Assembly: GCA_030625925.1 (NCBI GenBank)
Contig: DAOUPY010000022.1
Span: 1-10,888 of the forward strand
Source of the DNA: Fusobacteriaceae bacterium
GTDB lineage: Bacteria > Fusobacteriota > Fusobacteriia > Fusobacteriales > Fusobacteriaceae
DNA length: 10,888 nucleotides
Reading direction: 5' to 3'
The position numbers and the translations under genes are program-made. Positions 525-10,764 of this stretch are shown in pieces. Under the pieces are notes generated by a model that saw only the letters and a program-made list of their open reading frames with translations, had not been told where the DNA came from and did no database searches. Position 1 is the first letter of the stretch, and each line of letters opens with the position of its first letter.

Positions 525-1211
525 ATGACCAGACTAGAACGAAAGTTAAATGTAAAAAGGCTTTTTATAAATGCTACCATGACTATTATTCAAGAGGAAG
601 GCATAGAAGAGGTTAGTATAAGAAAGGTTGCCAAGATCACTGGCTACAACAGTGCAACCCTTTATACATATTTTAAAAATTTAGACCATTTAATCTTTTT
701 AGCTTCTATGAAATTTTTAAAGGAATATATAATTGGATTAGATGCCTATACTGAAAAAGCTGAAACCCCATTGGAGGAATCTATTCTCGTTTGGGAGTTT
801 TTTTGTAAATGCTCATTTAAAAAACCAGAGATCTACAAATCTATATTTTTTTCTAATTTAGATTTCAATAGGAAAGATTTTGAAAATTATTATGAGATAA
901 GGGAATTTTATAAGATCTATCCAGAGGAGATAACAAACTCCTTTGCAAAGTTCCATCGTATGATTTTAAAACTAGACATCTATGAGAGAAATAAAATCCT
1001 TTTGATAAAGACAGCTCGAAAAAAGTTGATTTCTCCGAGTAACATAACGACTATCAATGATATGCAGGTTCTTATGTATAAGGGACTTTTAGAGGAAGCT
1101 ACAAAACCTGAAAATATTTACAGGCGTAAAATTTTATGTAATAGAGCTATCAAATACATAAAAAACTGTTATAAATTATTTATCTTACAAGATTGTAGAT
1201 TATTAAAGTAA
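525..1211 (+). CDS. TetR/AcrR-family transcriptional regulator
   Basis: This 228-residue protein has the standard TetR layout. An N-terminal three-helix DNA-binding domain occupies about residues 8-58. Its recognition segment is SIRKVAKITGYNSATLYTYF, with the family-typical ALYxYF-like turn, followed by an all-helical ligand and dimer domain. The ATG at 525 is preceded by AGGAGAG at 511-517 with a suitable gap, so the start is well supported. The C-terminus is unusually rich in Lys, Arg and Cys. The gene stands alone and converges on the metallo-hydrolase gene, so its targets are not obvious. Possible self-regulation could use palindromes in the long upstream region, but that is inference. 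The ligand cannot be predicted, because the C-terminal domain matches no subgroup I recognise. Confidence 0.9.
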   Translation: MTRLERKLNVKRLFINATMTIIQEEGIEEVSIRKVAKITGYNSATLYTYFKNLDHLIFLASMKFLKEYIIGLDAYTEKAETPLEESILVWEFFCKCSFKKPEIYKSIFFSNLDFNRKDFENYYEIREFYKIYPEEITNSFAKFHRMILKLDIYERNKILLIKTARKKLISPSNITTINDMQVLMYKGLLEEATKPENIYRRKILCNRAIKYIKNCYKLFILQDCRLLK

Positions 1212-1252
1212 ATAAAATTAGGGGTAGTCTAAGACTACCCCTAATTTTATTT
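1210..1252. terminator. Bidirectional intrinsic terminator between tetR and the MBL gene
   Basis: A nearly perfect 21-bp inverted repeat has arms at 1210-1230 and 1232-1252. The core GGGGTAGTCT/AGACTACCCC is flanked by A-rich and T-rich ends on both sides. It begins at the stop codon of the TetR gene and ends 15 bp before the end of the converging metallo-hydrolase gene. The poly-T tail is in place for either strand, so it should stop transcription from both. Confidence 0.92.
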
Positions 1253-1266
1253 ACTGATTATTATAT

Positions 1267-1893
1267 TTATCTATTCAAAAATCTATTATGAATCTTTTCA
1301 TATTTTAAATTTGTATCTTCACCGTGTCCCGGATAGATAATGATATCATTGGGATATGTTTTAATTTTTTTCAGACTTTCTTTCATCTGTTCCTTACTAC
1401 TCAGTTGTGTGTTAGTAATACCTATAGTTTTTTTAAACAAAAAATCTCCTGTAAACATTACTTTATCTATTGGAAAGTAATATACAATGGAACAGGCAGT
1501 GTGTCCCGGAGTTTCTATTACAAAAAATTCAAAATTTCCTATCTTTTGCCTGCCCTCATCTAGATATTTGATATGGATCTTATCTATATCGAACCTTGTT
1601 CTTATTCCATATTTTTTTATGGTATAGTCAAAGTCAGCATCCATTATATAATTGGGCCGGCTGGAACTAAGGTAGACAGGAACCTTGTATTTATCGACAA
1701 ATTTATCCACTCCCAGCAGGTGATCCCAGTGGGTGTGGGTCAGCAGGATACCCACTACATTTAATTCTGATTTTTCTATGTACTCGTTGATAGTCTCAAA
1801 GTCACTTAAATCCACGATTAAACAGTCGTTACCCTTGATTAAAATATAGTTATTATTTTCGATTATTCCGCAAGTAATTTTTTTTACCTTCAT
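1267..1893 (-). CDS. Metallo-beta-lactamase-fold hydrolase, glyoxalase II-like
   Basis: With the start used here the protein is 208 residues. It carries the complete dinuclear metal site: THTHWDH (His53, His55, Asp57, His58), His131 in ETPGHTACS, Asp150 in MFTGDFLF and His190 in IYPGHGEDT. Overall length and the TPGHT and YPGHG motifs match single-domain hydroxyacylglutathione hydrolase-like proteins. True glyoxalase II has an extra C-terminal substrate domain, which is missing, so the thioester or other substrate is unknown. The frame opens at a GTG at 1914, but that codon has no ribosome binding site. The ATG at 1893 follows GGAGGAG closely and is preferred. The gene is 69 bp downstream of add on the same strand, with only a weak terminator between, so partial readthrough from add is likely. 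Cytoplasmic, with no signal peptide. Confidence 0.88.
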   Translation of the reverse strand: MKVKKITCGIIENNNYILIKGNDCLIVDLSDFETINEYIEKSELNVVGILLTHTHWDHLLGVDKFVDKYKVPVYLSSSRPNYIMDADFDYTIKKYGIRTRFDIDKIHIKYLDEGRQKIGNFEFFVIETPGHTACSIVYYFPIDKVMFTGDFLFKKTIGITNTQLSSKEQMKESLKKIKTYPNDIIIYPGHGEDTNLKYEKIHNRFLNR

Positions 1894-1931
1894 AACTCCT
1901 CCATGGTTAAACACTGTTTATTTAAAAGATC

Positions 1932-1954
1932 AAAAATTGTCCTTTGGACATTTG
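1932..1954 (-). terminator. Weak terminator-like hairpin after add
   Basis: Read on the minus strand, TGTCC-AAA-GGACA (1950-1938) forms a 5-bp stem with a 3-nt loop, followed shortly by TTTTT (1936-1932). The stem is short, so termination may be partial and allow readthrough into the MBL gene. Confidence 0.4.
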
Positions 1955-1962
1955 TATATTTT

Positions 1963-2955
1963 TTATTTTATATACTCTCTTAATTTTTGTTTTTCATCCT
2001 CTGAAATAAAAGCTGCTTCTACACTATTTAAATATATATTTGTATATTCTTCCTTTTTTAACTCAAAAGCTTTATCTATTTGGAAATATTCTTCAGTCAT
2101 GGTAGTATCTGAAACTGTTCTGTTGTCTGTATTTAATGTTATCATAATTTTATCATTATGAAAATCATATATTGGATGTTCCTTGTAATTTTTTACAGCC
2201 TTAGTCTGCACATTGCTGGTAGGACAGATCTCTAAAGGAATCTTTCTTTCTTTTACCAAATTATAGGCTTTTTTACTGTTAGTTATAAATACTCCATGTC
2301 CGATTCTTTCTGCTCCTAAAAGTTCAATTGCATCGGCAACATTTTCGCCTATACCTGTTTCTCCTGCATGGATAGTTATCCTATATCCATATTCCTTGGC
2401 TTTTTTCATGGGTTCAATAAATTTATGGCAAAATCCTGCTGCTTCTCCACCGCAAAGATCCACAGCGACAACTCCTTGCCCTATGAACGCCTTTCCCTCC
2501 TCAATTATTTTCATAGCTGATTCAGCTGAAAGATGTCTCATGCAAGATAATATGTAGTTTCCCTTTATATCATATATTTTCTCCGCTCTTCTCATCCCGC
2601 AGAGTACGCTTTGGATTATTTTTTTTGTAGTCAGCCCCTGTTTAGTATGCTGCTGAGGAGCAAATCTTATCTCTATATATTTTATATTTTCCATGGCAGC
2701 ATCTTCCATAAGTTCAAAAGACACCCTCTCTAAATCTTCTTTTGTCTGCATTACAGCTATTGGCAGGTCAAAACATCTGAGATATTCATCCAATGAACTG
2801 CAGCTTAAAGGTGCAGTCAATTGTTTTTTGACTTCTTCCAAATTTTGAGTTAATTCTAATTTATTTTTTATGATTATATCCAGAACTGTTTCACCTCTTA
2901 AACTACCGTCTAAGTGACAATGCAGGTCTATTTTTGGCATTTTTTTATAATTCAT
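1963..2955 (-). CDS. add: Adenosine deaminase
   Basis: This enzyme hydrolyses adenosine (and deoxyadenosine) to inosine and ammonia in purine salvage. The 330-residue length is normal for the family. All signature blocks are present: KIDLHCHLDGSLR with zinc ligands His12 and His14, HAGE with zinc ligand His196 and catalytic Glu199, RIGHG with His220, CPTSN and LNTDNRTVS with zinc ligand Asp277. The residue after Asp277 is Asn278, where animal and enterobacterial enzymes have Asp. I recall the TDNRTVS form from low-GC bacterial adenosine deaminases, so I read it as a subgroup trait rather than a defect. The ATG at 2955 follows AGGGGGA with good spacing. A consensus promoter and an adenine-type riboswitch with terminator lie directly upstream, so expression should rise with adenine. 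Confidence 0.96.
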   Translation of the reverse strand: MNYKKMPKIDLHCHLDGSLRGETVLDIIIKNKLELTQNLEEVKKQLTAPLSCSSLDEYLRCFDLPIAVMQTKEDLERVSFELMEDAAMENIKYIEIRFAPQQHTKQGLTTKKIIQSVLCGMRRAEKIYDIKGNYILSCMRHLSAESAMKIIEEGKAFIGQGVVAVDLCGGEAAGFCHKFIEPMKKAKEYGYRITIHAGETGIGENVADAIELLGAERIGHGVFITNSKKAYNLVKERKIPLEICPTSNVQTKAVKNYKEHPIYDFHNDKIMITLNTDNRTVSDTTMTEEYFQIDKAFELKKEEYTNIYLNSVEAAFISEDEKQKLREYIK

Positions 2956-3003
2956 TCTTATTCCCCCTATTATTTTGATCCGATCTATAGATTTCTGAGT
3001 AAT

Positions 3004-3060
3004 AAAAAAATTCCCATTACAAAGAAAGCTGTATAGACAGACCCTCTTCGTAATCAGGAA
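3004..3060 (-). terminator. Riboswitch-controlled intrinsic terminator upstream of add
   Basis: On the minus strand the 3' part of the purine aptamer pairs with downstream sequence. ATTACGAAGAGGG (3054-3042) pairs with CTTTCTTTGTAAT (3028-3016) in 13 pairs, three of them G-U. An outer TTCC/GGAA helix (3060-3057 with 3014-3011) lies beyond a small internal loop, and seven T follow at 3010-3004. The 5' arm contains the 3' strand of aptamer P1 plus the ligand-contacting U. Aptamer and terminator therefore exclude each other, the layout of an ON switch that works by antitermination. Confidence 0.88.
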
Positions 3061-3110
3061 TTATAGGTACCTGGTAGAAACCTCCAAACCATATTATTGG
3101 AGTTATACGA
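3048..3110 (-). promoter_or_regulatory. Purine riboswitch aptamer, adenine-specific type
   Basis: The 63-nt element reads on the minus strand from 3110 to 3048. P1 is TCGTA/TACGA (3110-3106 with 3052-3048). P2 is CTCCAA paired with TTGGAG around loop TAATATGG. The junction J2/3 is the invariant GTTTCTACC. P3 is CAGG/CCTG with an inner U-U mismatch, around loop CCTATAA. The loop-loop GG and CC that form the kissing contact are present. The base equivalent to position 74, which pairs with the ligand, is U (3053), which specifies adenine; guanine types have C. Relative to the Vibrio vulnificus add switch, the A-U pair in P1 is replaced by a compensating G-C, supporting a real helix. The gene controlled is an adenosine deaminase. 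Confidence 0.95.
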
Positions 3111-3128
3111 TGTTAAATTATTTATAAT

Positions 3129-3157
3129 ATTTTAACAATTATTTCACTTTATGTCAA
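3129..3157 (-). promoter_or_regulatory. Sigma-70-type promoter of add
   Basis: On the minus strand a perfect TTGACA (3157-3152) is followed by a 17-bp spacer and TAAAAT (3134-3129). The predicted start of transcription, near 3122, lies about 12 nt before the riboswitch, as expected. The -35 box abuts the stop codon of the PPC-domain gene, so add has its own promoter and does not depend on the upstream gene. Confidence 0.85.
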
Positions 3158-3559
3158 TTATGCCTGATTTTTTGATAGTGTCAATTCTTCATACCCTGTA
3201 TGTCGATCCATCTTTCTATCAAATTTATAATTTTCTAATATTCCTATGACCAATTCACATGTTGTATTAACTATATTTCCCTCTACAAGATGACCCCCGA
3301 AACTAATCCCATCTGAATCACTACAGCTTATGTGTATATGAACACCCTTTGGAGAGATAGTTCCATTCAATGAAAGGATCTCTAGATTTTTCTTAATCTC
3401 TCGAATGCTTATACCATCAGCCACTCTAAATCTAGCTTTTGATATACAGCCTACAGAGGAGAGTATAACTCCTGCTTGTATTTGTTCTGCCACAGCTATT
3501 TTTTCTATTTCAACCTTTAAATCCATTCCTTCAGTCAATCTAACAGCATATACCTTCAT
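3158..3559 (-). CDS. PPC domain (DUF296) protein
   Basis: The 133-residue protein is a single PPC/DUF296 domain, the fold also found attached to AT-hooks in plants and as stand-alone trimeric proteins in bacteria. Visible family blocks are AGVILSSVGCISKARFR (residues 29-45), the histidine cluster VHIHISCSDSDG (His74, His76), FGGHLVEG (His90), CELVIG and the closing FDRKMDRHTGYEELTL. His74, His76 and His90 probably form the metal site described for bacterial members. No AT-hook is present, so DNA binding should not be assumed and the molecular role is unknown. The ATG at 3559 follows GAGGAG with a 5-nt gap. It lies just upstream of the add promoter, and any link to purine metabolism is only positional. 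Confidence 0.85.
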   Translation of the reverse strand: MKVYAVRLTEGMDLKVEIEKIAVAEQIQAGVILSSVGCISKARFRVADGISIREIKKNLEILSLNGTISPKGVHIHISCSDSDGISFGGHLVEGNIVNTTCELVIGILENYKFDRKMDRHTGYEELTLSKNQA

Positions 3560-3579
3560 TTTATCTCCTCTATAAATAT

Positions 3580-3608
3580 ATTCTAATCTTAATGCTACTA
3601 TATTTAAA
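3580..3608 (-). promoter_or_regulatory. Possible promoter of the PPC-domain gene
   Basis: On the minus strand, TTTAAA (3608-3603) and TAGAAT (3585-3580) are 17 bp apart, followed by a short leader with the GAGGAG site. The -10 matches consensus at five of six bases and the -35 at four. Its place between the preceding terminator and the start codon supports it. Confidence 0.4.
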
Positions 3609-3624
3609 TAAAACTTACAAGTTG

Positions 3625-3655
3625 AAAAAAAGGCTGACCCCGGGATCAGCCTTTT
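3625..3655 (-). terminator. Intrinsic terminator after the 65-residue protein gene
   Basis: AAAAGGCTGA at 3628-3637 and TCAGCCTTTT at 3646-3655 form a 10-bp stem with an 8-nt GC-rich loop. On the minus strand the stem ends in seven consecutive T (3631-3625). It lies 14 bp beyond the end of the small gene at 3669, so it ends that unit before the PPC gene. Confidence 0.9.
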
Positions 3656-3668
3656 CTAGAGATAAACC

Positions 3669-3866
3669 TTACTTCCTCTTAAGAGCGATTATTCGGATTC
3701 CTAATTCTTTTTCCAGTGCAGAAATTTTTTGCAATTGTTCTTCTGGCAGCTTATCATAATCATACTGCGATTCATGGTAAGCGATGAGAAGAAGGTTATT
3801 CTCTTCCTCTATTTTTTTAATTTTTTCAATTCCCTTTTCGTCACAACCTGAAATAAAATGATGCAT
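3669..3866 (-). CDS. Hypothetical 65-residue protein
   Basis: I do not recognise this family. The coding call rests on a strong ribosome binding site (GGAGGGG, 7 nt before ATG at 3866), a terminator just after the stop, and a composition that looks like a folded protein. The sequence suggests helix (about residues 10-23, charged), strand LLLIAY (25-30), helix (40-54) and strand IRIIAL (57-62), ending in a basic KRK. That would be a compact alpha/beta domain. There is no signal peptide or membrane segment. It is a single-gene unit between two other small proteins, and the context gives no clear function. Confidence 0.7.
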   Translation of the reverse strand: MHHFISGCDEKGIEKIKKIEEENNLLLIAYHESQYDYDKLPEEQLQKISALEKELGIRIIALKRK

Positions 3867-3987
3867 AATTAATCCCCTCCATTATTTTAATTTTACAGTC
3901 TAACTAACTCTAACCTAAAAAAATCCAAAAATCAATTTTTTTATAGTATAGGAAATTATACTCCTAGGGAGGCCTAACCTTAGTCAG

Positions 3988-4263
3988 CTACTTTCTTCCT
4001 ATAATCATTGAATAGTATGACTTGTGAGGTTCCCCGGTCTTGATATCAATGACATCCGGATCATGCTCTATGATCTTAAATTCATTGAGATATTTTTTTA
4101 TGTCGTTTGCCTCGAATATGTGAGGTTCTAACTCAACGGTTTCATCCCCGTCAAAACGAATTCTGATCTCCTTGGGATGTTCCAGAGCTTTTTTTGATCC
4201 AGATTCCAAAAATTCATATCCGGCACCCTCCAATATTATTTTGATTTCATCGATTAGCCTCAA
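3988..4263 (-). CDS. Hypothetical 91-94 residue acidic protein
   Basis: I do not recognise this family. The protein is acidic and soluble, with an amphipathic N-terminal helix (RLIDEIKIILEGAGYEFLES), a beta-rich centre (IRIRFDGDETVELEP) and a closing YYSMIIGR strand. The start is uncertain. An ATG at 4272 would give 94 residues, but the AGGAGG ribosome binding site (4278-4273) directly abuts it with no spacer. A TTG at 4263, three codons in, has a 9-nt gap and is the start chosen here. A candidate promoter lies at 4288-4316. No clear terminator follows; only weak AT hairpins are seen between 3900 and 3960. Confidence 0.65.
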   Translation of the reverse strand: MRLIDEIKIILEGAGYEFLESGSKKALEHPKEIRIRFDGDETVELEPHIFEANDIKKYLNEFKIIEHDPDVIDIKTGEPHKSYYSMIIGRK

Positions 4264-4800: not shown

Positions 4801-5874
4801 GTGGATAAAAATAAAAGAAATAATAAAATTCAAAAAAAATTCCCATTAAAGGTGGCTTTAATTTCTCCCATAGCATGGAGAACCCCTCCCAGGCATTATG
4901 GTCCCTGGGAAAATATTGTTTCTTTACTCTGTGAAGGTTTAGTAAAAAGAGGAGTAGATGTAACGCTCTTTGCAACAGGTGAATCTATAACAGAAGGAAA
5001 ATTGAGATGGATGTGTCAAGTTGGGTACGAGGAGGATAAAGATATAGATCCCAAAGTTTGGGAAAGTCTCCATATAGCCAATGTATTTCAAAGTGCCCAT
5101 GAATTCGATATTATACACAACAACTTTGATTTTCTGCCGTTGACCTATAGTGGATTGGTGGATACACCAGTACTCACAACAATACATGGATTTTCCTCTG
5201 AAAAGGTACTTCCTGTATATGAAAAGTATAATGAGAGTACCTACTATGTTTCAATAAGCAATTCAGATCGAAGCAGTAATTTGAATTATATAGATACTAT
5301 ATACCACGGGATAGATCTAACTCAATTTACATATAGAGATATCCCAGAAGATTATCTATTATTTTTTGGAAGATTACATAAAGATAAAGGTCCAAAAGAA
5401 GCTATTGAAATAGCTAAAAGATCCAATAAAAAACTCATAATGGCAGGAATTATTCAAGATGAAGGATATTTTAAGGATGAAATAGGGCCCCATCTAAACG
5501 GAGATATTACCTATATAGGAAGTGTTGGCCCCAAAGAAAGGGATAGGTTACTAGGTGGAGCACAGGCTCTTCTACACCCTATATATTTCGAGGAACCCTT
5601 TGGATTATCTGTTATAGAAGCTATGGCTTGCGGGACACCTGTGATAGCTTACAACAAGGGCAGCATGCCAGAGCTTATAGAGGATGAGATCAATGGGTTT
5701 CTTGTGGATGATATAGACGGAGCTCTGCTGGCTTTGGAGAAGCTCTCAAGTATTGACAGGAAAAGGTGCAGAGAGATTGTAGAGAAAATTTTTTCAGTCA
5801 ATCGAATGGTAGATGACTATATGAAGGTATATGAAAAGATCCTTGAAGACCGAGGAAAGGCAGGTAAACGATGA
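4801..5874 (+). CDS. GT4-family glycosyltransferase (putative mannosyltransferase)
   Basis: The 357-residue protein is a GT-B-fold retaining glycosyltransferase of family GT4. The N-terminal acceptor domain opens after a basic tail with VALISPIAWRTPPRHYGPWE (about residues 18-36), the glycine-containing loop typical of this subgroup. The C-terminal donor domain has the phosphate-binding FFGRLHKDKG (Arg191, Lys196) and the EX7E motif FEEPFGLSVIE (Glu265, Glu273), so it looks active. The start is GTG at 4801, supported by GAGGTGAT at 4788-4795. It is first in the five-gene operon and overlaps the next gene by 4 nt (ATGA), so the two are probably translationally coupled. Partnership with GH130 genes suggests GDP-mannose as donor; that is inference. 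No signal peptide or membrane anchor, so it acts in the cytoplasm. Confidence 0.88.
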   Translation: MDKNKRNNKIQKKFPLKVALISPIAWRTPPRHYGPWENIVSLLCEGLVKRGVDVTLFATGESITEGKLRWMCQVGYEEDKDIDPKVWESLHIANVFQSAHEFDIIHNNFDFLPLTYSGLVDTPVLTTIHGFSSEKVLPVYEKYNESTYYVSISNSDRSSNLNYIDTIYHGIDLTQFTYRDIPEDYLLFFGRLHKDKGPKEAIEIAKRSNKKLIMAGIIQDEGYFKDEIGPHLNGDITYIGSVGPKERDRLLGGAQALLHPIYFEEPFGLSVIEAMACGTPVIAYNKGSMPELIEDEINGFLVDDIDGALLALEKLSSIDRKRCREIVEKIFSVNRMVDDYMKVYEKILEDRGKAGKR

Positions 5875-6803
5875 AGAGAGAAGTGGTAGTACGATATAAA
5901 AAAAATCCTATACTGACTAAAGATGATGTGCCGTATCCTGTGGCTACAGTTCATAATGCAGGAGTTGTTAAATATAAAGATAAATATATTATGTTGTTCC
6001 GTTCCCATCTGCTAAATGGAAGGTCGGTTATCGGAATGGCTAAAAGTGATGATGGTTATGATTTTAAAGTGGAACCGAAACCTTTTTTAACACCCTGTAT
6101 GGACAAGGAGTCAATATTTTCCCTGTATGAGGAATACGGTGTAGAAGACCTCAGGATCAGTGAGATAGATGGTGAATACCTCTTAACGTATAGTTGTTAT
6201 TCTAGGTATGGAGTTAGGATAGCCCTGGCGAAAACCCTTGATTTTATAGATGTAGAAAGGGTCGCTCTTATTACTCAGGCAGATCTGAGAAATGTAGTTA
6301 TATTTCCAGAAAAGATAGATGGACAGTATGTGAGGCTGGATAGACCTCATTCAGAGATATCTAAATGGTCCATTTGGATATCCTATTCACCAGATTTGAT
6401 ACATTGGGGAAGATCTAAATTAATAATGCAGCCCCATAAATATCATTGGGATGAGATGAAAATAGGTCCTGGAGCCACTCCTATAAAAACTGAAAAAGGA
6501 TGGTTAAATATATACCACGGTGTATTTAAAACCATGTCAGGATCTGTTTATAGACTGGGGGCAGCTCTTCATGATTTGAAAGATCCCTCTATTATGCTGG
6601 GAGTTTCAGATGACTGGATCCTGGAGCCGGAAGATCCATGGGAGGTAACGGGCTATGTGCCCAATGTAGTCTTTACTTGTGGAGCAGTAGATGAAGGAGA
6701 TGGGACTCTGAAGATCTACTGGGGCGGAGCCGACAGTGTCATGTGTGTAGGAGAAGCCAATATAAATAAGCTGATAGGGATGTGTTTAAGCGGGGGGGAG
6801 TAA
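5871..6803 (+). CDS. GH130 beta-mannoside phosphorylase-like enzyme (short form)
   Basis: The 310-residue protein is a complete five-bladed beta-propeller of GH130, an inverting family that acts on beta-mannosides. Recognisable blocks are KNPILTKDD, VHNAGVVKYKDKYIMLFR, GVEDLRIS with Asp93 as the likely catalytic acid, QYVRLDRPHSE, EMKIGPGATPIKTEKGWLNIYHGV and GYVPNVVFTCGA. Arg155/Arg158, Lys197, Tyr215 and His216 sit where GH130 phosphorylases bind phosphate. I therefore expect phosphorolysis of a beta-mannoside to mannose 1-phosphate, or the reverse synthesis, rather than hydrolysis. Linkage (beta-1,2 or beta-1,4) cannot be fixed from sequence alone. Start ATG at 5871 overlaps the upstream stop. 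Cytoplasmic, with no signal peptide, so the substrate is intracellular. Confidence 0.87.
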   Translation: MKREVVVRYKKNPILTKDDVPYPVATVHNAGVVKYKDKYIMLFRSHLLNGRSVIGMAKSDDGYDFKVEPKPFLTPCMDKESIFSLYEEYGVEDLRISEIDGEYLLTYSCYSRYGVRIALAKTLDFIDVERVALITQADLRNVVIFPEKIDGQYVRLDRPHSEISKWSIWISYSPDLIHWGRSKLIMQPHKYHWDEMKIGPGATPIKTEKGWLNIYHGVFKTMSGSVYRLGAALHDLKDPSIMLGVSDDWILEPEDPWEVTGYVPNVVFTCGAVDEGDGTLKIYWGGADSVMCVGEANINKLIGMCLSGGE

Positions 6804-6804
6804 A

Positions 6805-8244
6805 ATGGAGAAATTAAATGTAAAGAGGATAGGAAAGATATTTAAGCCAGACCCATCAAGAGTAATTATGAAATCTCATATACCATCAGGTGAAGGGCGT
6901 ATAGAGAATATCATAACACGCGTTTTAAACTTATCGGATGAGGAAGCCGATAAGATTTTGCAGGATATAATAGAAGACTTTTCAGGAAGGCATAAAAATA
7001 TCTGGGATGCACTGGATAAATACTATAATAGAATAAAAAAATATATCCCCTCAAATATAGGGATAAATGACACGAAAAGGGCCCTTTTAGGAGCTTATTT
7101 TTCCCAAGAGTATACAGTTCAATCAGCGGCTTTTTTTAATCCATCTATTGTGAAACATCCAGATCAAACTCAAGTCCCAGAAGGGAGTATAAGATTTATA
7201 TTAAGTTTCAGATCAGTGGGAGAGGGACACTTATCCTCTATAGAGTTTAGGGGCGGAATGGTAGATGAAGAAGGGAATTTTGAATTTGATGAGGTGAGCC
7301 CCTTTGTAGAAAGGGCCGTAGCCGTGAATAATCCTGTATATAAAAAAGATCTCTTTTTTTGTAAATTGGATGAGATGCATGAAGATTGCAGTTCCTTATC
7401 AAATCTAAAAGAACAACTATCAGATGAATTTAACTTATCCGAACTCCGGGCTCTTTTAAATATATCACCAGAAAAAAAAATTCATGATCTAAAGGATACC
7501 GTGTTGTGGTTAGCAGAATCCAACTATGAGCTGCAGTTTAAAATAGATCAAAAATTATCTGAAAGGATTATATTCCCCAGTTCACGAAATGAAAGTAATG
7601 GAATAGAAGATGCAAGGTTTGTGCGATTTGAATATGATGATGGAGAGGTAGTTTATTACGCTACATATACGGCCTATAATGGAGTTAAAATCCTGCCTCA
7701 AATATTGGAAACTAAAGATTTCTTTAACTATAAAGCTATAACATTAAACGGAGAGTATGCAGCCAATAAGGGGATGGCTCTTTTCCCGAAAAAAATCAAT
7801 GGAAAATACATGGTAATTTCCAGGGTTGATGGAGAAAACTTATATATAATGTCTTCTGAAAACATCCATTTTTGGGAAACTTCAGATCTGTTAAGACGAC
7901 CGAAATATGATTGGGAATTTATGCAGATTGGGAACTGCGGGTCCCCCATAGAAACAGACAGAGGATGGATAGTTTTAACTCATGGTGTGGGGCCCATGAG
8001 AAAATATTCTTTAGGAGCAATCCTCTTGGATCTAGAGGATCCAACAAAAGTAATAGGAGCTACCAGGGAGCCCATATTAGAACCACTGGAAAGTGAAAGA
8101 AATGGTTATGTGCCAAATGTTGTCTACTCTTGTGGTGGAATCATTCACGGGGATAATTTAATTATTCCTTATGCAATGTCAGATACAAATTCTGGGATAG
8201 CCTTAGTTTCCGTAACAGAATTGCTGGATTACATGTTAAATTAG
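6805..8244 (+). CDS. GH130-family protein, long form with N-terminal extension
   Basis: The 479-residue protein has about 100 N-terminal helical residues, then a GH130 propeller interrupted by an acidic helical insert (about 185-250). Propeller blocks are AAFFNPSIVKHPDQ (108-120), FILSFRSVGEGHLSSIEFRGG, NGIEDARFVRF with Asp269 as probable catalytic acid, FMQIGNCGSPIETDRGWIVLTHGVG and GYVPNVVYSCGG. Compared with the preceding GH130, the phosphate-binding positions differ: Gln374 replaces the Lys, Thr392-His393 replaces Tyr-His, and ISRVDG replaces RLDRP. It may therefore be a hydrolase, or use another leaving group such as a nucleotide sugar. It starts 1 nt after the preceding stop, with a GGGGGGAG site inside that gene. 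The two GH130s are too different to be a recent duplication. No signal peptide. Confidence 0.85.
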   Translation: MEKLNVKRIGKIFKPDPSRVIMKSHIPSGEGRIENIITRVLNLSDEEADKILQDIIEDFSGRHKNIWDALDKYYNRIKKYIPSNIGINDTKRALLGAYFSQEYTVQSAAFFNPSIVKHPDQTQVPEGSIRFILSFRSVGEGHLSSIEFRGGMVDEEGNFEFDEVSPFVERAVAVNNPVYKKDLFFCKLDEMHEDCSSLSNLKEQLSDEFNLSELRALLNISPEKKIHDLKDTVLWLAESNYELQFKIDQKLSERIIFPSSRNESNGIEDARFVRFEYDDGEVVYYATYTAYNGVKILPQILETKDFFNYKAITLNGEYAANKGMALFPKKINGKYMVISRVDGENLYIMSSENIHFWETSDLLRRPKYDWEFMQIGNCGSPIETDRGWIVLTHGVGPMRKYSLGAILLDLEDPTKVIGATREPILEPLESERNGYVPNVVYSCGGIIHGDNLIIPYAMSDTNSGIALVSVTELLDYMLN

Positions 8245-8256
8245 GGAGTTGAAAAA

Positions 8257-9474
8257 ATGATAGATAAAATTATAAATGGACAAGAAAAAATAGGTTTGAT
8301 AGGGACTTACCTCCCAAGACGGTGTGGGATAGCTACTTTTACAACAGATCTGAGTAATGCAATAAGAAGTGAATTATGTGGAGAAAATAGATTAATAAAT
8401 ATAGCGATGAATGACAGGGAGGAGGGGTATGATTATCCTTTAGAGGTGAAACTAACAATTTCAGAGGGAAACAGGGAAGAATATATTAAAACAGCCCACC
8501 ATCTGAATAAGAATGGATGTAGAGCAGTAATTATTCAACATGAATATGGAATCTACGGTGGTTCAGACGGGGAATATATTATAGATCTAATGAAGAGGCT
8601 GGAGATGCCTGTTTTGACCAATCTTCATACGGTATTGGAAAATCCAAGTCTCAGTCAGAGAAAGGTTATGAGTTCACTAGCTGAATACTCTGAAAAGCTC
8701 TTGGTGATGAGTAAAAAAGCTTTTAGTATATTGAGGGAAGTATACGGAATTCCAAAAGAGATGATAGCCTTTGTTCCTCATGGAATACCAGATACTCCCT
8801 TTGAAGAGCAAGGGACATATAATAAGATAATTGGCCTGGAGGGGAAAGAAATCATTCTTACCTTTGGTCTTCTGAGTCCTGGAAAGGGGCTGGAAGTAAT
8901 GATCGAGGCAATGCCTGCCATTGTGAAGGAAAATCCCAATGCAGTTTATTTAATACTGGGAAAAACCCATCCTCAGATCTTACGGAAAACAGGAGATGTG
9001 TACAGAGAGAAGTTAAAGGAGCAGATAAAGGGTTTAAATTTAGAAGAAAATGTTATTTTCCATGATAAATTTGTAGAGGTAGAAACCCTTGTAAGATATA
9101 TAAAGACATCCACTATATATTCTATTCCATATTTGAATAGGGAACAGATAACTTCTGGAACATTGGCCTATGCTCTTGGATCAGGGGCAGTAGTTGTATC
9201 TACGCCATTTTGGCATGCAGAAGAACTTTTAGCAGAAGGGAGGGGAGTGTTGGTGCCCTTTAGGGATTCAGAGAATTTGGCTAAGGAAATAAACATATTA
9301 TTAGCAGATCCAGAGAAACGTCAAAAGATTAGAAGAAGGGTCTACGATTATGCTAGATCTATGGTTTGGCCAGAGGTTGCTAGGAGTTATCTGAAGATAA
9401 TTGAGGAATGCAAAGAAAAAAAGAATACTCATGTATTTTTTACAAAAAAAAATATCTTGGAAAAAGATAAATGA
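8257..9474 (+). CDS. GT4-like glycosyltransferase (N-terminal half of a probable split fusion)
   Basis: The 405-residue protein has the GT-B fold. The N-terminal domain shows IGTYLPRRCGIATFTTDL (residues 14-32) and QHEYGIYGG (94-102). The donor domain includes FVPHGIPD, ILTFGLLSPGKGLE (199-213) and PYLNREQITSGTLAYALGSG. In the last block the first Glu of the EX7E motif is Glu296, but the second is replaced by Ala304. That pattern seems usual for this QITSGTLAYALG subgroup. The tail after about 385 (KEKKNTHVFFTKKNILEKDK) looks like a linker. The ATG at 8257 follows GGGAG with 8 nt spacing, 12 nt after the long GH130 gene. The next gene is in the same frame beyond one TGA at 9472-9474. Sugar transfer is likely, mannose by context. 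Confidence 0.85.
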   Translation: MIDKIINGQEKIGLIGTYLPRRCGIATFTTDLSNAIRSELCGENRLINIAMNDREEGYDYPLEVKLTISEGNREEYIKTAHHLNKNGCRAVIIQHEYGIYGGSDGEYIIDLMKRLEMPVLTNLHTVLENPSLSQRKVMSSLAEYSEKLLVMSKKAFSILREVYGIPKEMIAFVPHGIPDTPFEEQGTYNKIIGLEGKEIILTFGLLSPGKGLEVMIEAMPAIVKENPNAVYLILGKTHPQILRKTGDVYREKLKEQIKGLNLEENVIFHDKFVEVETLVRYIKTSTIYSIPYLNREQITSGTLAYALGSGAVVVSTPFWHAEELLAEGRGVLVPFRDSENLAKEINILLADPEKRQKIRRRVYDYARSMVWPEVARSYLKIIEECKEKKNTHVFFTKKNILEKDK

Positions 9475-9483
9475 GAGAAAGGG

Positions 9484-10554
9484 ATGAGATCAAGAAAGAT
9501 ATTTTATGGATTACCTGAGGTAGATTTATCGCATCTAAAAATATTGACAGATGATACAGGAATACTTCAACATGCAAAATATACTATTCCAGACTTAACT
9601 CATGGATATTGTACAGATGACAATGCCAGAGCACTGATCGCTGTATCGATGTGTTATAACCTCAAAGGAAATAGGGATATATATCCTTTTATTCAGAAAT
9701 ACTTAGCTTTTTTAAACTATTCATTTGATAAAAAGACAAAGAGGTTTGCAAACTTCATGTCCTACGACAGAAGATGGGTGGAAAATATAGGGAGTGAAGA
9801 TTCTCACGGGAGAACACTTTGGGCTCTGGGAGTCACAATTAAAAACATAAGGGATGAATCTATCCGTACTATGTCTATGAAGCTTTTTACATCTGCACTT
9901 TCTGTGGTGTCGGAGTTTACTTCTCCTAGAGCTTGGGCCTTTACAGTGCTGGGCTTATGGGCATATTTAGAGGTGGATCCAAAAGACACGGAAAAAAGAG
10001 AAATTCAAAGGGTTTTAGGTGAAAAAATTTATGGTCTATATAGGAATACAGCAACAACTGATTGGCTTTGGTGTGAGGAAACGGTTACGTATTCCAATGG
10101 AGTTTTACCCCACGCTTTAATATTAGCTGGGGAGCGTATTGATGATAAAGATATGTATAACATGGGAATTCAGTCTTTGAAATGGCTGCTAAAAATTCAA
10201 ACTGCTCCAGAGGGGCACCTTTCTGTAATAGGAAATGAGGGGTGGTTTACCAGAGATAAAGAAAAAGCTGCCTTTGGTCAGCAGCCGGTAGAGGCCATGT
10301 GCTTACTCAATGCTTGCCTGCATATATATAGAACTACGAAGGATGAGTGGTGGCTAGATGAGGCAAATAAATGTATGGCATGGTTTTTTGGAGAAAATGA
10401 TCTGGGAACTCCTATATATAATTATGAAGATGGCGGGTGTAGAGATGGATTAGATTCTCATGGGGTAAACCAGAATCAGGGGGCGGAATCTACATTAGCC
10501 GGGTTGATATCCCTGATTAACATCCGTGAGTCAGCAGGTAAAAACTTTAAATAG
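9484..10554 (+). CDS. Predicted (alpha/alpha)-barrel carbohydrate-active protein (C-terminal half of a probable split fusion)
   Basis: The 356-residue protein is rich in helices and resembles six-hairpin glycosidase-like barrels. Conserved-looking blocks are LTDDTGILQHAKYTIPDLTHGYCTDDNARAL (about 21-51; Asp45, Asp46, Asn47), GSEDSHGRTLWALG (103-116), CEETVTYSNGVLPHALILAG, AAFGQQPVEAMCL (262-274; Glu270) and GLDSHGVNQNQGAESTLAGL (322-341; Glu335). The acidic residues in these blocks are candidate catalytic or sugar-binding groups. I recall this domain as the C-terminal part of longer bacterial GT4 proteins; here it is a separate reading frame directly after the GT4 gene. The ATG at 9484 has only a weak, very close purine-rich site (GAGAAAGGG), so translation probably depends on coupling. 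Reaction unknown. Last gene of the operon, with no immediate terminator. Confidence 0.75.
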   Translation: MRSRKIFYGLPEVDLSHLKILTDDTGILQHAKYTIPDLTHGYCTDDNARALIAVSMCYNLKGNRDIYPFIQKYLAFLNYSFDKKTKRFANFMSYDRRWVENIGSEDSHGRTLWALGVTIKNIRDESIRTMSMKLFTSALSVVSEFTSPRAWAFTVLGLWAYLEVDPKDTEKREIQRVLGEKIYGLYRNTATTDWLWCEETVTYSNGVLPHALILAGERIDDKDMYNMGIQSLKWLLKIQTAPEGHLSVIGNEGWFTRDKEKAAFGQQPVEAMCLLNACLHIYRTTKDEWWLDEANKCMAWFFGENDLGTPIYNYEDGGCRDGLDSHGVNQNQGAESTLAGLISLINIRESAGKNFK

Positions 10555-10734: not shown

Positions 10735-10764
10735 AAAAGCTTCCAAACTGGAAGCTTTTATTTT
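10735..10764 (+). terminator. Intrinsic terminator before the lysine-rich gene
   Basis: AAAAGCTTCCA (10735-10745) and TGGAAGCTTTT (10749-10759) form an 11-bp stem with a 3-nt loop AAC, followed by ATTTT. It is the first convincing terminator after the glycan operon and also ends the transcript from the promoter at 10593-10622. It lies only 22 bp before the next start codon, a position typical of attenuators. Confidence 0.88.

Follow-up and report, generated by a model that had tools for sequence, protein, structure and literature searches.

The locus raises the question of what two adjoining GH130 genes do in a tight cluster with two glycosyltransferase-like genes and a barrel gene. The window (the whole stretch of DNA analysed, 10,888 nucleotides) contains five ORFs, all on the + strand, that span 4801-10554 with intergenic gaps of -4, 1, 12 and 9 bases (window ORF list), in the order GT4 (GTa), GH130 (GHs), GH130 (GHl), GT-B protein (GTb) and (alpha/alpha)6 barrel (BAR). 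A five-gene cluster with tight or overlapping spacing had been described in the first-pass annotation, and coordinates, gaps and Pfam matches agree with that description. The features are:

4801-5874, + strand: GTa, predicted retaining GT4 glycosyltransferase (357 aa, GTG start; PF00534, 89 bits)
5871-6803, + strand: GHs, GH130, predicted beta-mannoside phosphorylase (310 aa; PF04041, 182 bits)
6805-8244, + strand: GHl, long divergent GH130 (479 aa; PF04041 at residues 252-477, 128 bits)
8257-9474, + strand: GTb, GT-B protein of GT4 type with degenerate donor motif (405 aa; PF00534, 68 bits)
9472-9486, + strand: GTb/BAR junction, TGA, GAGAAAGGG (possible ribosome binding site) and ATG in a single frame
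9484-10554, + strand: BAR, (alpha/alpha)6 barrel (356 aa; corresponds to the C-terminal half of the GTb-BAR of relatives)
10735-10759, + strand: terminator-like hairpin 3' of the cassette (consensus scan only)

All five ORFs have homologues in other genomes, so the frames are not chance. Pfam Glyco_hydro_130 was matched by GHs (181.8 bits) and GHl (127.7 bits) over the curated cut-off of 26, which places both in GH130; Glycos_transf_1 was matched by GTa (89 bits) and GTb (68 bits), and BAR was without Pfam match. Hydropathy maxima (19-residue window) were 0.89-1.27 across the five proteins and none had a hydrophobic N-terminus. By hydropathy alone, signal peptides and membrane segments are therefore unlikely, in line with the earlier description of a cluster lacking signal peptides. 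That description had also excluded a transporter, secreted mannanase and mannose isomerase, and a Pfam scan of 11 of the 12 window ORFs of at least 80 aa brought up neither a transporter nor a mannanase or mannose isomerase (the ORF outside the scan is minus-strand 4939-5187, within the GTa gene; the window extends 334 bases 3' of BAR).

Conservation was assessed in 83 loci with a GTb-BAR match, 3 of them Fusobacteriota regions added to a set of 80, and cassette loci were found in at least a dozen phyla. GH130 lay within 8 kb of GTb-BAR in 65/83 loci. When only well-covered loci were counted (5 kb or more to either side, n = 32), GH130 was within 8 kb in 30 and GTa in 23. The gene cluster is real and conserved across phyla; lack of conservation in other genomes, which the first-pass annotation had named as grounds for giving up its proposal, was tested and is contradicted by the 30 of 32. 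The four-gene unit is flanked by differing neighbours in three genomes (G056, G044 and G042), and the cassette is apparently mobile. No paper that unites GT4, GH130 and an (alpha/alpha)6 barrel in a single system came up in a literature search, and in that sense the cassette is apparently undescribed. Other loci have, in place of an absent GHl, a second degenerate GT4-like protein (GT4y), often with a third GH130. GHx and GT4y occurred together in 6/32 loci, an association that was not significant (p 0.13) and that weakens the idea that both always replace GHl together.

GTb and BAR are a single ORF in 73 of the 80 related loci, and the remaining 7 begin at a contig end; since they form one protein in most relatives, the cassette is elsewhere mostly four-gene. 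In the window the two lie in the same frame with one TGA and nine bases between them, and no stop was present at the junction in L003, G056, G044, G042 or G043. A sequencing error at the split would agree with the single GTb-BAR ORF of G056, G044, G042 and G043, but the possible ribosome binding site before the BAR ATG speaks against it. An error is disfavoured: P0008-P0010 are 356-aa barrels with differing first residues.

GT4 enzymes are marked by a GT-B domain with phosphate-binding Arg/Lys and an EX7E motif. The cluster had been credited with two such enzymes, of which one was upheld. GTa matched PF00534 and kept Y33, R191, K196, E265 and E273 in 30/30 aligned rows, and its GT4 active site is conserved. 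GTb also matched PF00534, and in 74 aligned rows the donor-binding residues were replaced: L205 (74/74) stands for the usual Arg, with K210 kept, and Q297 (74/74) and Y305 (73/74) replace EX7E, with a one-residue ambiguity in these positions from a weak profile alignment. Judged by these residues, GTb is not an ordinary GT4, and an alpha-linking role is consequently argued for GTa only. The closest solved relative of GTa was 7fg9 (262 bits, 334 residues aligned), the glucosylsucrose synthase TeGSS (tll1591; PMC9909042, in excerpt). The catalytic Tyr and Arg of TeGSS align with GTa and EX7E is present. TeGSS uses UDP-glucose and sucrose as donor and acceptor according to that excerpt; GTa, in contrast, is clustered with GH130s, and some of its relatives have a phosphomannose-isomerase domain. 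This domain, a mannose-6-phosphate-isomerase cupin tail (PF01050), was found in 11/42 GTa ORFs, in all 11 over the Pfam cut-off, and was missing from the window GTa and the other GTa ORFs (31/42 in all without it, some cut by contig ends). The fusions strengthen the link to mannose that had been proposed for the cluster.

The two GH130 proteins had been described as divergent and adjoining, and this is confirmed by PF04041 matches over cut-off in both and by catalytic and phosphate residues that differ. Closest to GHs among solved structures were TM1225 (193 bits) and Lin0857 (177 bits). GHs kept E92-D93, R140, N141, R158, K197 and H216 in 25/25 aligned rows; D93 is the catalytic Asp, R140, R158 and K197 are the basic residues of a phosphorylase, and R140, N141, R158, K197 and H216 fall at the phosphate site in alignments with known GH130 phosphorylases. 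GHs looks like a competent phosphorylase. GHl has about 250 residues N-terminal to its Pfam match, and its closest solved structure was Teth514_1788. It has D269, K322 and R340, with K322, R340 and H393 kept in 26/26 rows, and the third basic phosphate residue was absent in 26/26: position 374 was Q in 23 rows and L in the other 3, and Q in 56/56 rows of alignment A2, where the solved GH130s compared have K or R. In BT3780-type beta-1,2-mannosidases glutamates replace basic phosphate residues (PMC4599007, in excerpt). By this residue rule, which stands in for a direct alignment to BT3780, GHl (R340 and Q374, no glutamates at the expected positions) was rejected as a hydrolase of that type, and GHs (R158 and K197 where glutamates are expected) is not of it either. 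The beta-1,2-specificity lysine (Lys199 of BT3780), when placed by spacing, would correspond to K322 in GHl (26/26) and to an Arg, R140, in GHs (25/25); the lack of this lysine in GHs counts against the main reading given below. On their residues GHs and GHl are not equivalent.

BAR was modelled as a confident (alpha/alpha)6 barrel resembling sugar enzymes, which favours the earlier assignment of the fifth protein as a glycoside-active barrel. N-acylglucosamine and cellobiose 2-epimerases combine this fold with a catalytic histidine pair in the C-terminal half, and GH76 and other (alpha/alpha)6 hydrolases carry a catalytic Asp-Asp pair at a fixed place. BAR shares the fold but has no conserved histidine in its C-terminal half, and a 2-epimerase was rejected on that ground. 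Among entries with this widespread fold, MmpH (7qsj), which acts in mycobacterial methylmannose polysaccharide recycling (PMC9883506, in excerpt), has 9% identity to BAR, and 37 other entries score higher. YPO2471 (7tem) was named a putative exported protein by its depositors, an entry name that states no function, whereas BAR is without a signal by hydropathy.

We hold with roughly even confidence that the cassette is a cytosolic system that makes a soluble mannose-containing glycan and recycles it by phosphorolysis. GTa would transfer a sugar to an acceptor, most likely alpha-mannose from GDP-mannose, a donor suggested by the isomerase fusions of relatives; the use of UDP-glucose and sucrose by its closest characterised relative counts against this (PMC9909042, in excerpt). 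GHs would act on beta-mannosyl bonds by reversible phosphorolysis and yield mannose 1-phosphate, which could pass to GDP-mannose or to glycolysis, and GHl would be a modified GH130 on beta-mannosyl bonds whose phosphate site is without one basic residue. GTb-BAR would be a two-module protein, split here, with a GT-B domain without standard nucleotide-sugar contacts and a BAR module with a probable role in binding or trimming the glycan. Because GT4s act with retention, beta linkages are not expected from them, and no ordinary inverting mannosyltransferase was present among the five genes. The product may be a reserve, a protective solute (osmolyte) or a precursor. If this is correct, a mannose-based cytosolic glycan pathway exists beside glycogen in many uncultured and some cultured bacteria; groups named only 'glycosidase', 'glycosyl transferase family 1' and 'hypothetical protein' gain a shared role; bacterial GH130 enzymes gain a biosynthetic setting; and the enzymes worth assaying come to include a GT-B group that lacks EX7E and an (alpha/alpha)6 family as yet without a name.

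The nearest described neighbourhood is the Thermoanaerobacter GT4/guanylyltransferase/GH130-GH130 cluster, Teth514_1785-1796 in Thermoanaerobacter sp. X-514 (Chiku et al., 2014, PMC4264767). As excerpted, it shares with the cassette two adjoining cytosolic GH130s and a GT4 in one cluster and mannose 1-phosphate as an intermediate; its two GH130s are also the nearest to GHl among solved structures. The role proposed there, in the same excerpt, for two adjacent GH130s, a GT4 and a mannose 1-phosphate guanylyltransferase was salvage, in which GH130s phosphorolyse cytosolic beta-mannosides to mannose 1-phosphate without ATP and the glycosyltransferases spend the resulting GDP-mannose. We consider salvage unlikely for the present cassette. 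The Thermoanaerobacter cluster holds an ABC transporter, a GH5 and the guanylyltransferase, whereas a sugar transporter, mannanase and guanylyltransferase were absent beside the cassette in the window and among 23/30 flanking ORFs of L090-L092 (Pfam); the sole transporter gene in the scanned flanks, in L091, codes for a symporter of the SBF family and lies 1.4 kb from the unit, and no transporter was recognised in representatives of six further neighbour groups recurring in at least 5 loci. (One of these six groups is a 116-aa protein without Pfam match.) No GTb-BAR appears among the Thermoanaerobacter proteins named in the excerpt, two further ones being hypothetical proteins; GHl differs in its long N-terminal part and in the missing phosphate residue, and GHs is closer to TM1225. 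That same closeness, together with Arg-Asn in GHs at the site of the Lys of beta-1,2 enzymes, would suit degradation of imported plant beta-1,4-mannan by the GH130s, but this is highly improbable: the sugar transporter and secreted mannanase that accompany GH130 in diet-mannan loci were found neither in the window nor in 23/30 flanking ORFs of L090-L092, no hydrophobic N-terminus was seen in the five proteins, and two glycosyltransferases are of unclear use in catabolism.

Envelope and exopolysaccharide pathways commonly use GT4 enzymes and GDP-mannose, and the glycosyltransferases might build a surface glycan while the GH130s recycle side products. This is improbable, as a flippase, polymerase, lipid-carrier transferase and glycan exporter were absent from the scanned window ORFs and from 23/30 flanking ORFs of L090-L092, and membrane segments were absent from the five proteins by hydropathy. 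An AsmA/DUF748-like gene lies on the opposite strand in L090. A compatible solute is a rather doubtful alternative, in which a short oligosaccharide is made under salt or heat stress, as is cyanobacterial glucosylsucrose, and dismantled by the GH130s after stress. GTa's closest solved relative makes glucosylsucrose, and its synthesis is raised under salt or heat stress (PMC9909042, in excerpt); some record titles (Olavius symbiont, Arabian11, ETNP2) suggest, on our reading, marine or saline sources; and Hsp20 (6/80 loci) and RelA/SpoT (5/80) are recurrent neighbour families. These neighbours are few, however, and were counted per locus rather than per operon, and a small solute would hardly seem to need two GH130s plus a barrel.

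A bolder form of the synthesis-and-recycling reading, which we regard as quite speculative, makes the cassette a bacterial counterpart of Leishmania mannogen, with GHl as a phosphate-independent GH130-fold mannosyltransferase, GHs as phosphorylase, GTa as the enzyme that lays down an alpha-linked primer, and GTb as a GT-B enzyme active without a normal nucleotide-sugar site and coupled to a trimming barrel. The presence of GT4y and a third GH130 where GHl is missing fits a swap of synthetic parts. The Leishmania enzymes (GT108/MPT) have a GH130-like fold, and the analogy lies in a cytosolic glycan that is both made and recycled. Differences are that GHl is far nearer to bacterial GH130s (E 2.2e-19) than to MPT-2 (E 1.0e-5), that the window's genome has glycogen synthase and that, to our knowledge, mannogen has no GT4 or barrel partner. 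The structural match of GHl to 6q4y was weak (E 1.0e-5).

Mannose supply was traced in 24 cassette genomes that we chose from the 80 loci, mostly on long contigs. Of these, 21 matched the guanylyltransferase part of TIGR01479, 7 over cut-off and 14 below it (242-371 bits). The 3 that lacked it count against the main reading, as do two genomes outside the 24: cassette genome G057 (62% complete) had a single match, below cut-off, and the window's genome (82% complete) had none better than E 1.7e-4. Below-cut-off matches are common in cassette-free Fusobacteriota, so such matches show supply and not linkage. In a quality set of 79 Fusobacteriota genomes (completeness 90% or more, contamination 5% or less), TIGR01479 was over cut-off in 4/4 cassette genomes, three of which belong to one genus; 8/98 genomes were positive overall. 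Fisher's test of TIGR01479 against the cassette gave p 2.3e-5 with 3 cassette-free positives among 75, a value that ignores genome kinship and is approximate because one cassette-free positive (G045, 6% contamination) lies outside the 79-genome set. Glycogen synthase (GlgA) was over cut-off in 89/98 Fusobacteriota genomes, the window's own included, which rules out the cassette as a replacement for glycogen.

The cassette (4801–10554) comprised five genes on one strand, with intergenic gaps of -4, 1, 12 and 9 bases. Genes 1 and 4 (GTa and GTb) were assigned by Pfam to the GT4-type glycosyltransferases and genes 2 and 3 (GHs, short, and GHl, long) to GH130; gene 5 (BAR), an (alpha/alpha)6 barrel, had no match in Pfam or NCBIfam. 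Hydropathy analysis found no hydrophobic N-terminus or membrane segment in any of the five proteins, which look cytosolic by sequence. The nearest named relatives of GHl were from Psychrilyobacter (P0127, 94% identity) and an uncultured Ilyobacter (P0131, 87%). Between the TetR-like gene and GTa, the minus-strand genes (metallo-hydrolase, adenosine deaminase, PCC domain, a 94-aa ORF without a match, and DUF1540) look unrelated to the cassette; 3' of BAR the window held only 334 bases. Features upstream of the cassette were as follows:

525–1211, plus strand: TetR-like gene
1208–1254: hairpin of 20 pairs separating the TetR-like gene from the metallo-hydrolase gene convergent with it; it may serve as a terminator in both directions
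1963–2955, minus strand: adenosine deaminase gene (TIGR01430, 311 bits)
3031–3130, minus strand: purine riboswitch (RF00167, 75.9 bits), directly upstream of the adenosine deaminase gene

GTa was aligned over 334 residues (262 bits) with PDB 7fg9, tied in the available text of PMC9909042 to TeGSS, which is described there as forming glucosylsucrose from UDP-glucose and sucrose. The Tyr and Arg aligned with the TeGSS catalytic pair, plus EX7E, were conserved in 30/30 rows. In GHs the catalytic Asp and aligned phosphate-site residues were conserved in 25/25 rows, and this protein is by sequence a competent phosphorylase. GHl kept its catalytic Asp, Lys, Arg and His in 26/26 rows, and the Lys is presumed to correspond to the beta-1,2 determinant described in the available text of PMC4599007. 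Its second basic position, Lys or Arg in the solved GH130s compared, was Gln in 23/26 rows and Leu in 3/26, with Gln invariant in the 56 rows of alignment A2. GTb carried Leu in place of the phosphate-binding Arg (74/74 rows) and retained Lys210 and His175; at EX7E it had Gln (74/74) and Tyr (73/74), as placed by a weak GTb–GTa profile alignment (E 0.0022, probability 12.8) that leaves the first Glu uncertain by one residue; the alternative, position 296, was not conserved.

Of 42 GTa ORFs, not all of them complete owing to contig ends, 11 had 112–137 additional C-terminal residues beyond the GT domain. All 11 tails matched PF01050, the C-terminal cupin of mannose-6-phosphate isomerase, over cut-off (ten at 60–128 bits, that of locus L025 at 26.6 bits), and the four run against NCBIfam matched best to the last part of TIGR01479. 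This fusion, which is absent from GTa of the window and of the Fusobacteriota regions L090–L092, is the best sign of a pathway that would handle mannose. A search of 24 cassette genomes gave a match to the guanylyltransferase part of TIGR01479 in 21, seven of them over cut-off and 14 below it (242–371 bits); G098, G100 and G101 gave none. Below-cut-off matches were also common among Fusobacteriota without the cassette. The window's genome (82% complete) gave a best match of only E 1.7e-4, and G057 (62% complete) one match below cut-off. The cassette occurred in four of the 79 Fusobacteriota genomes with completeness of 90% or more and contamination of 5% or less, and all four had TIGR01479 over cut-off; over all 98 genomes, eight had such a match.

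A mannogen-like, cytosolic operon for mannose glycan synthesis and recycling had been proposed in the first-pass annotation. Here too the simplest reading would be a soluble mannoside that is synthesised and then recycled by phosphorolysis: the proteins look cytosolic, one GH130 is by sequence a competent phosphorylase, the unit includes a normal GT4 (joined in relatives to a domain for mannose supply), and in the window and scanned flanks neither import nor export genes for sugars were found to belong to the unit. A plain glycogen substitute is unlikely, since glycogen synthase was matched over cut-off in 89/98 Fusobacteriota, the window's genome included. The nearest described neighbourhood, as far as the available text of Chiku et al., 2014 (PMC4264767) goes, is a Thermoanaerobacter cluster of two GH130 phosphorylases with GT4, M1P guanylyltransferase and transporter genes, for which a salvage role was proposed; the window shows neither transporter nor guanylyltransferase, and it has GTb-BAR. 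A literature search found no account of the whole gene set as one system. Of the 30 ORFs that flank the unit in L090–L092, 23 were scanned with Pfam, and the only transporter gene among them was an SBF-family symporter gene in L091, 1.4 kb from the unit; an 87-aa ORF and a gene for an ArsR-like regulator lie in between. In locus L089 (genome G061), a distant BAR-like ORF lay near two ABC-permease-like ORFs (one Pfam-confirmed, PF00528) on a contig also holding GH130 matches; this is a GH130 context of another kind, linked to import, within the same genus.

Genome contigs were scanned for BAR relatives, giving 473 stretches; the best 80 loci were kept, and three Fusobacteriota regions brought the loci with a GTb-BAR match to 83, of which 65 had a GH130 at most 8 kb away. 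In the 32 loci with 5 kb or more of sequence on either side, GH130 was present in 30, GTa in 23, GHs in 19 and GHl in 17; loci were sampled by BAR, and these counts give how often partners accompany BAR, not the converse. Both well-covered loci without GH130 (L016 and L067) had another GT4-like gene. Two layouts were seen, with partial gene sets in several loci. Type I, that of the window, combines GTb-BAR with GTa, GHs and GHl; in type II the place of GHl is taken by another GT4-like protein (GT4y), a third GH130 (GHx) or both. In the well-covered loci (Fisher tests, kinship ignored), GHl occurred with GT4y in 0/32 (p 1.8e-4) and with GHx in 3/32 (p 0.0036), GTa with GHs in 17/32 (p 0.015), and GHx with GT4y in 6/32 (p 0.13). 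The presumed beta-1,2 determinant was Lys in 23/25 GHx rows. GT4y, a degenerate GT4-like protein, and GHx were found in L028 (3637–5833) and other type II loci, where GHl is usually missing.

BAR was matched in 7/98 Fusobacteriota genomes (2/29 genera), full-length (>560 bits) in six and partial in G061 (86 bits). The same six had GHs-like and GHl-like matches, and GTa was 85–90% identical in the five other carriers; G061 and G040 had GH130s of other kinds. The four-gene unit was flanked by differing neighbours in G056 (same genus as the window's genome), G044 and G042. Its occurrence in Fusobacteriota is patchy, and the picture is of a cassette that moved horizontally. In G042 (L092), Mutator-type transposase genes lay on either side (3078–4184 and 11023–12246), one separated from the unit by a 141-aa ORF without a Pfam match. 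A resolvase gene was also near the L092 cassette, with type I restriction and HepT-like genes farther out. In a quickly built tree (75 GTb-BAR rows), the four fusobacterial sequences grouped together (support 100), within a 9-row group (support 96, long stem of 0.8) completed by L004–L008 from Spirochaetota, Desulfobacteraceae and a record titled Deltaproteobacteria; the method flagged the fusobacterial rows and L005 as differing in letter make-up from the others. The window's four-gene order recurred in L006, L007 and, just outside this group, L009; L005 and L008 had it minus GHs, and L004 was cut by a contig end.

GTb and BAR formed one ORF of 666–869 aa in 73 of the best 80 of 473 BAR-encoding stretches, the remaining seven starting at a contig end, and were also kept as one ORF in G056, G044, G042 and G043. 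In the window they share a frame, and at 9472–9486 a TGA is followed by GAGAAAGGG and then BAR's ATG, an apparent gene fission by a single TGA. Locus L003, on a contig apparently identical to that of L087 and L093, reads through this junction. Splitting seems present in other relatives, since P0008, P0009 and P0010 are 356-aa stand-alone barrels whose first residues differ. In L003 the fused GTb-BAR (1141–3411) was interrupted near the C-terminus of its BAR part, leaving ORFs of 666 and 85 aa. The 442-aa BAR relative P0007, with an N-terminus resembling a membrane helix and linker in place of GTb, may reflect faulty assembly or be a form anchored in the membrane. In L069, a second, weak BAR-like ORF (6184–7662, 33 bits) lay next to a GHx gene on the 5' side of the main cluster.
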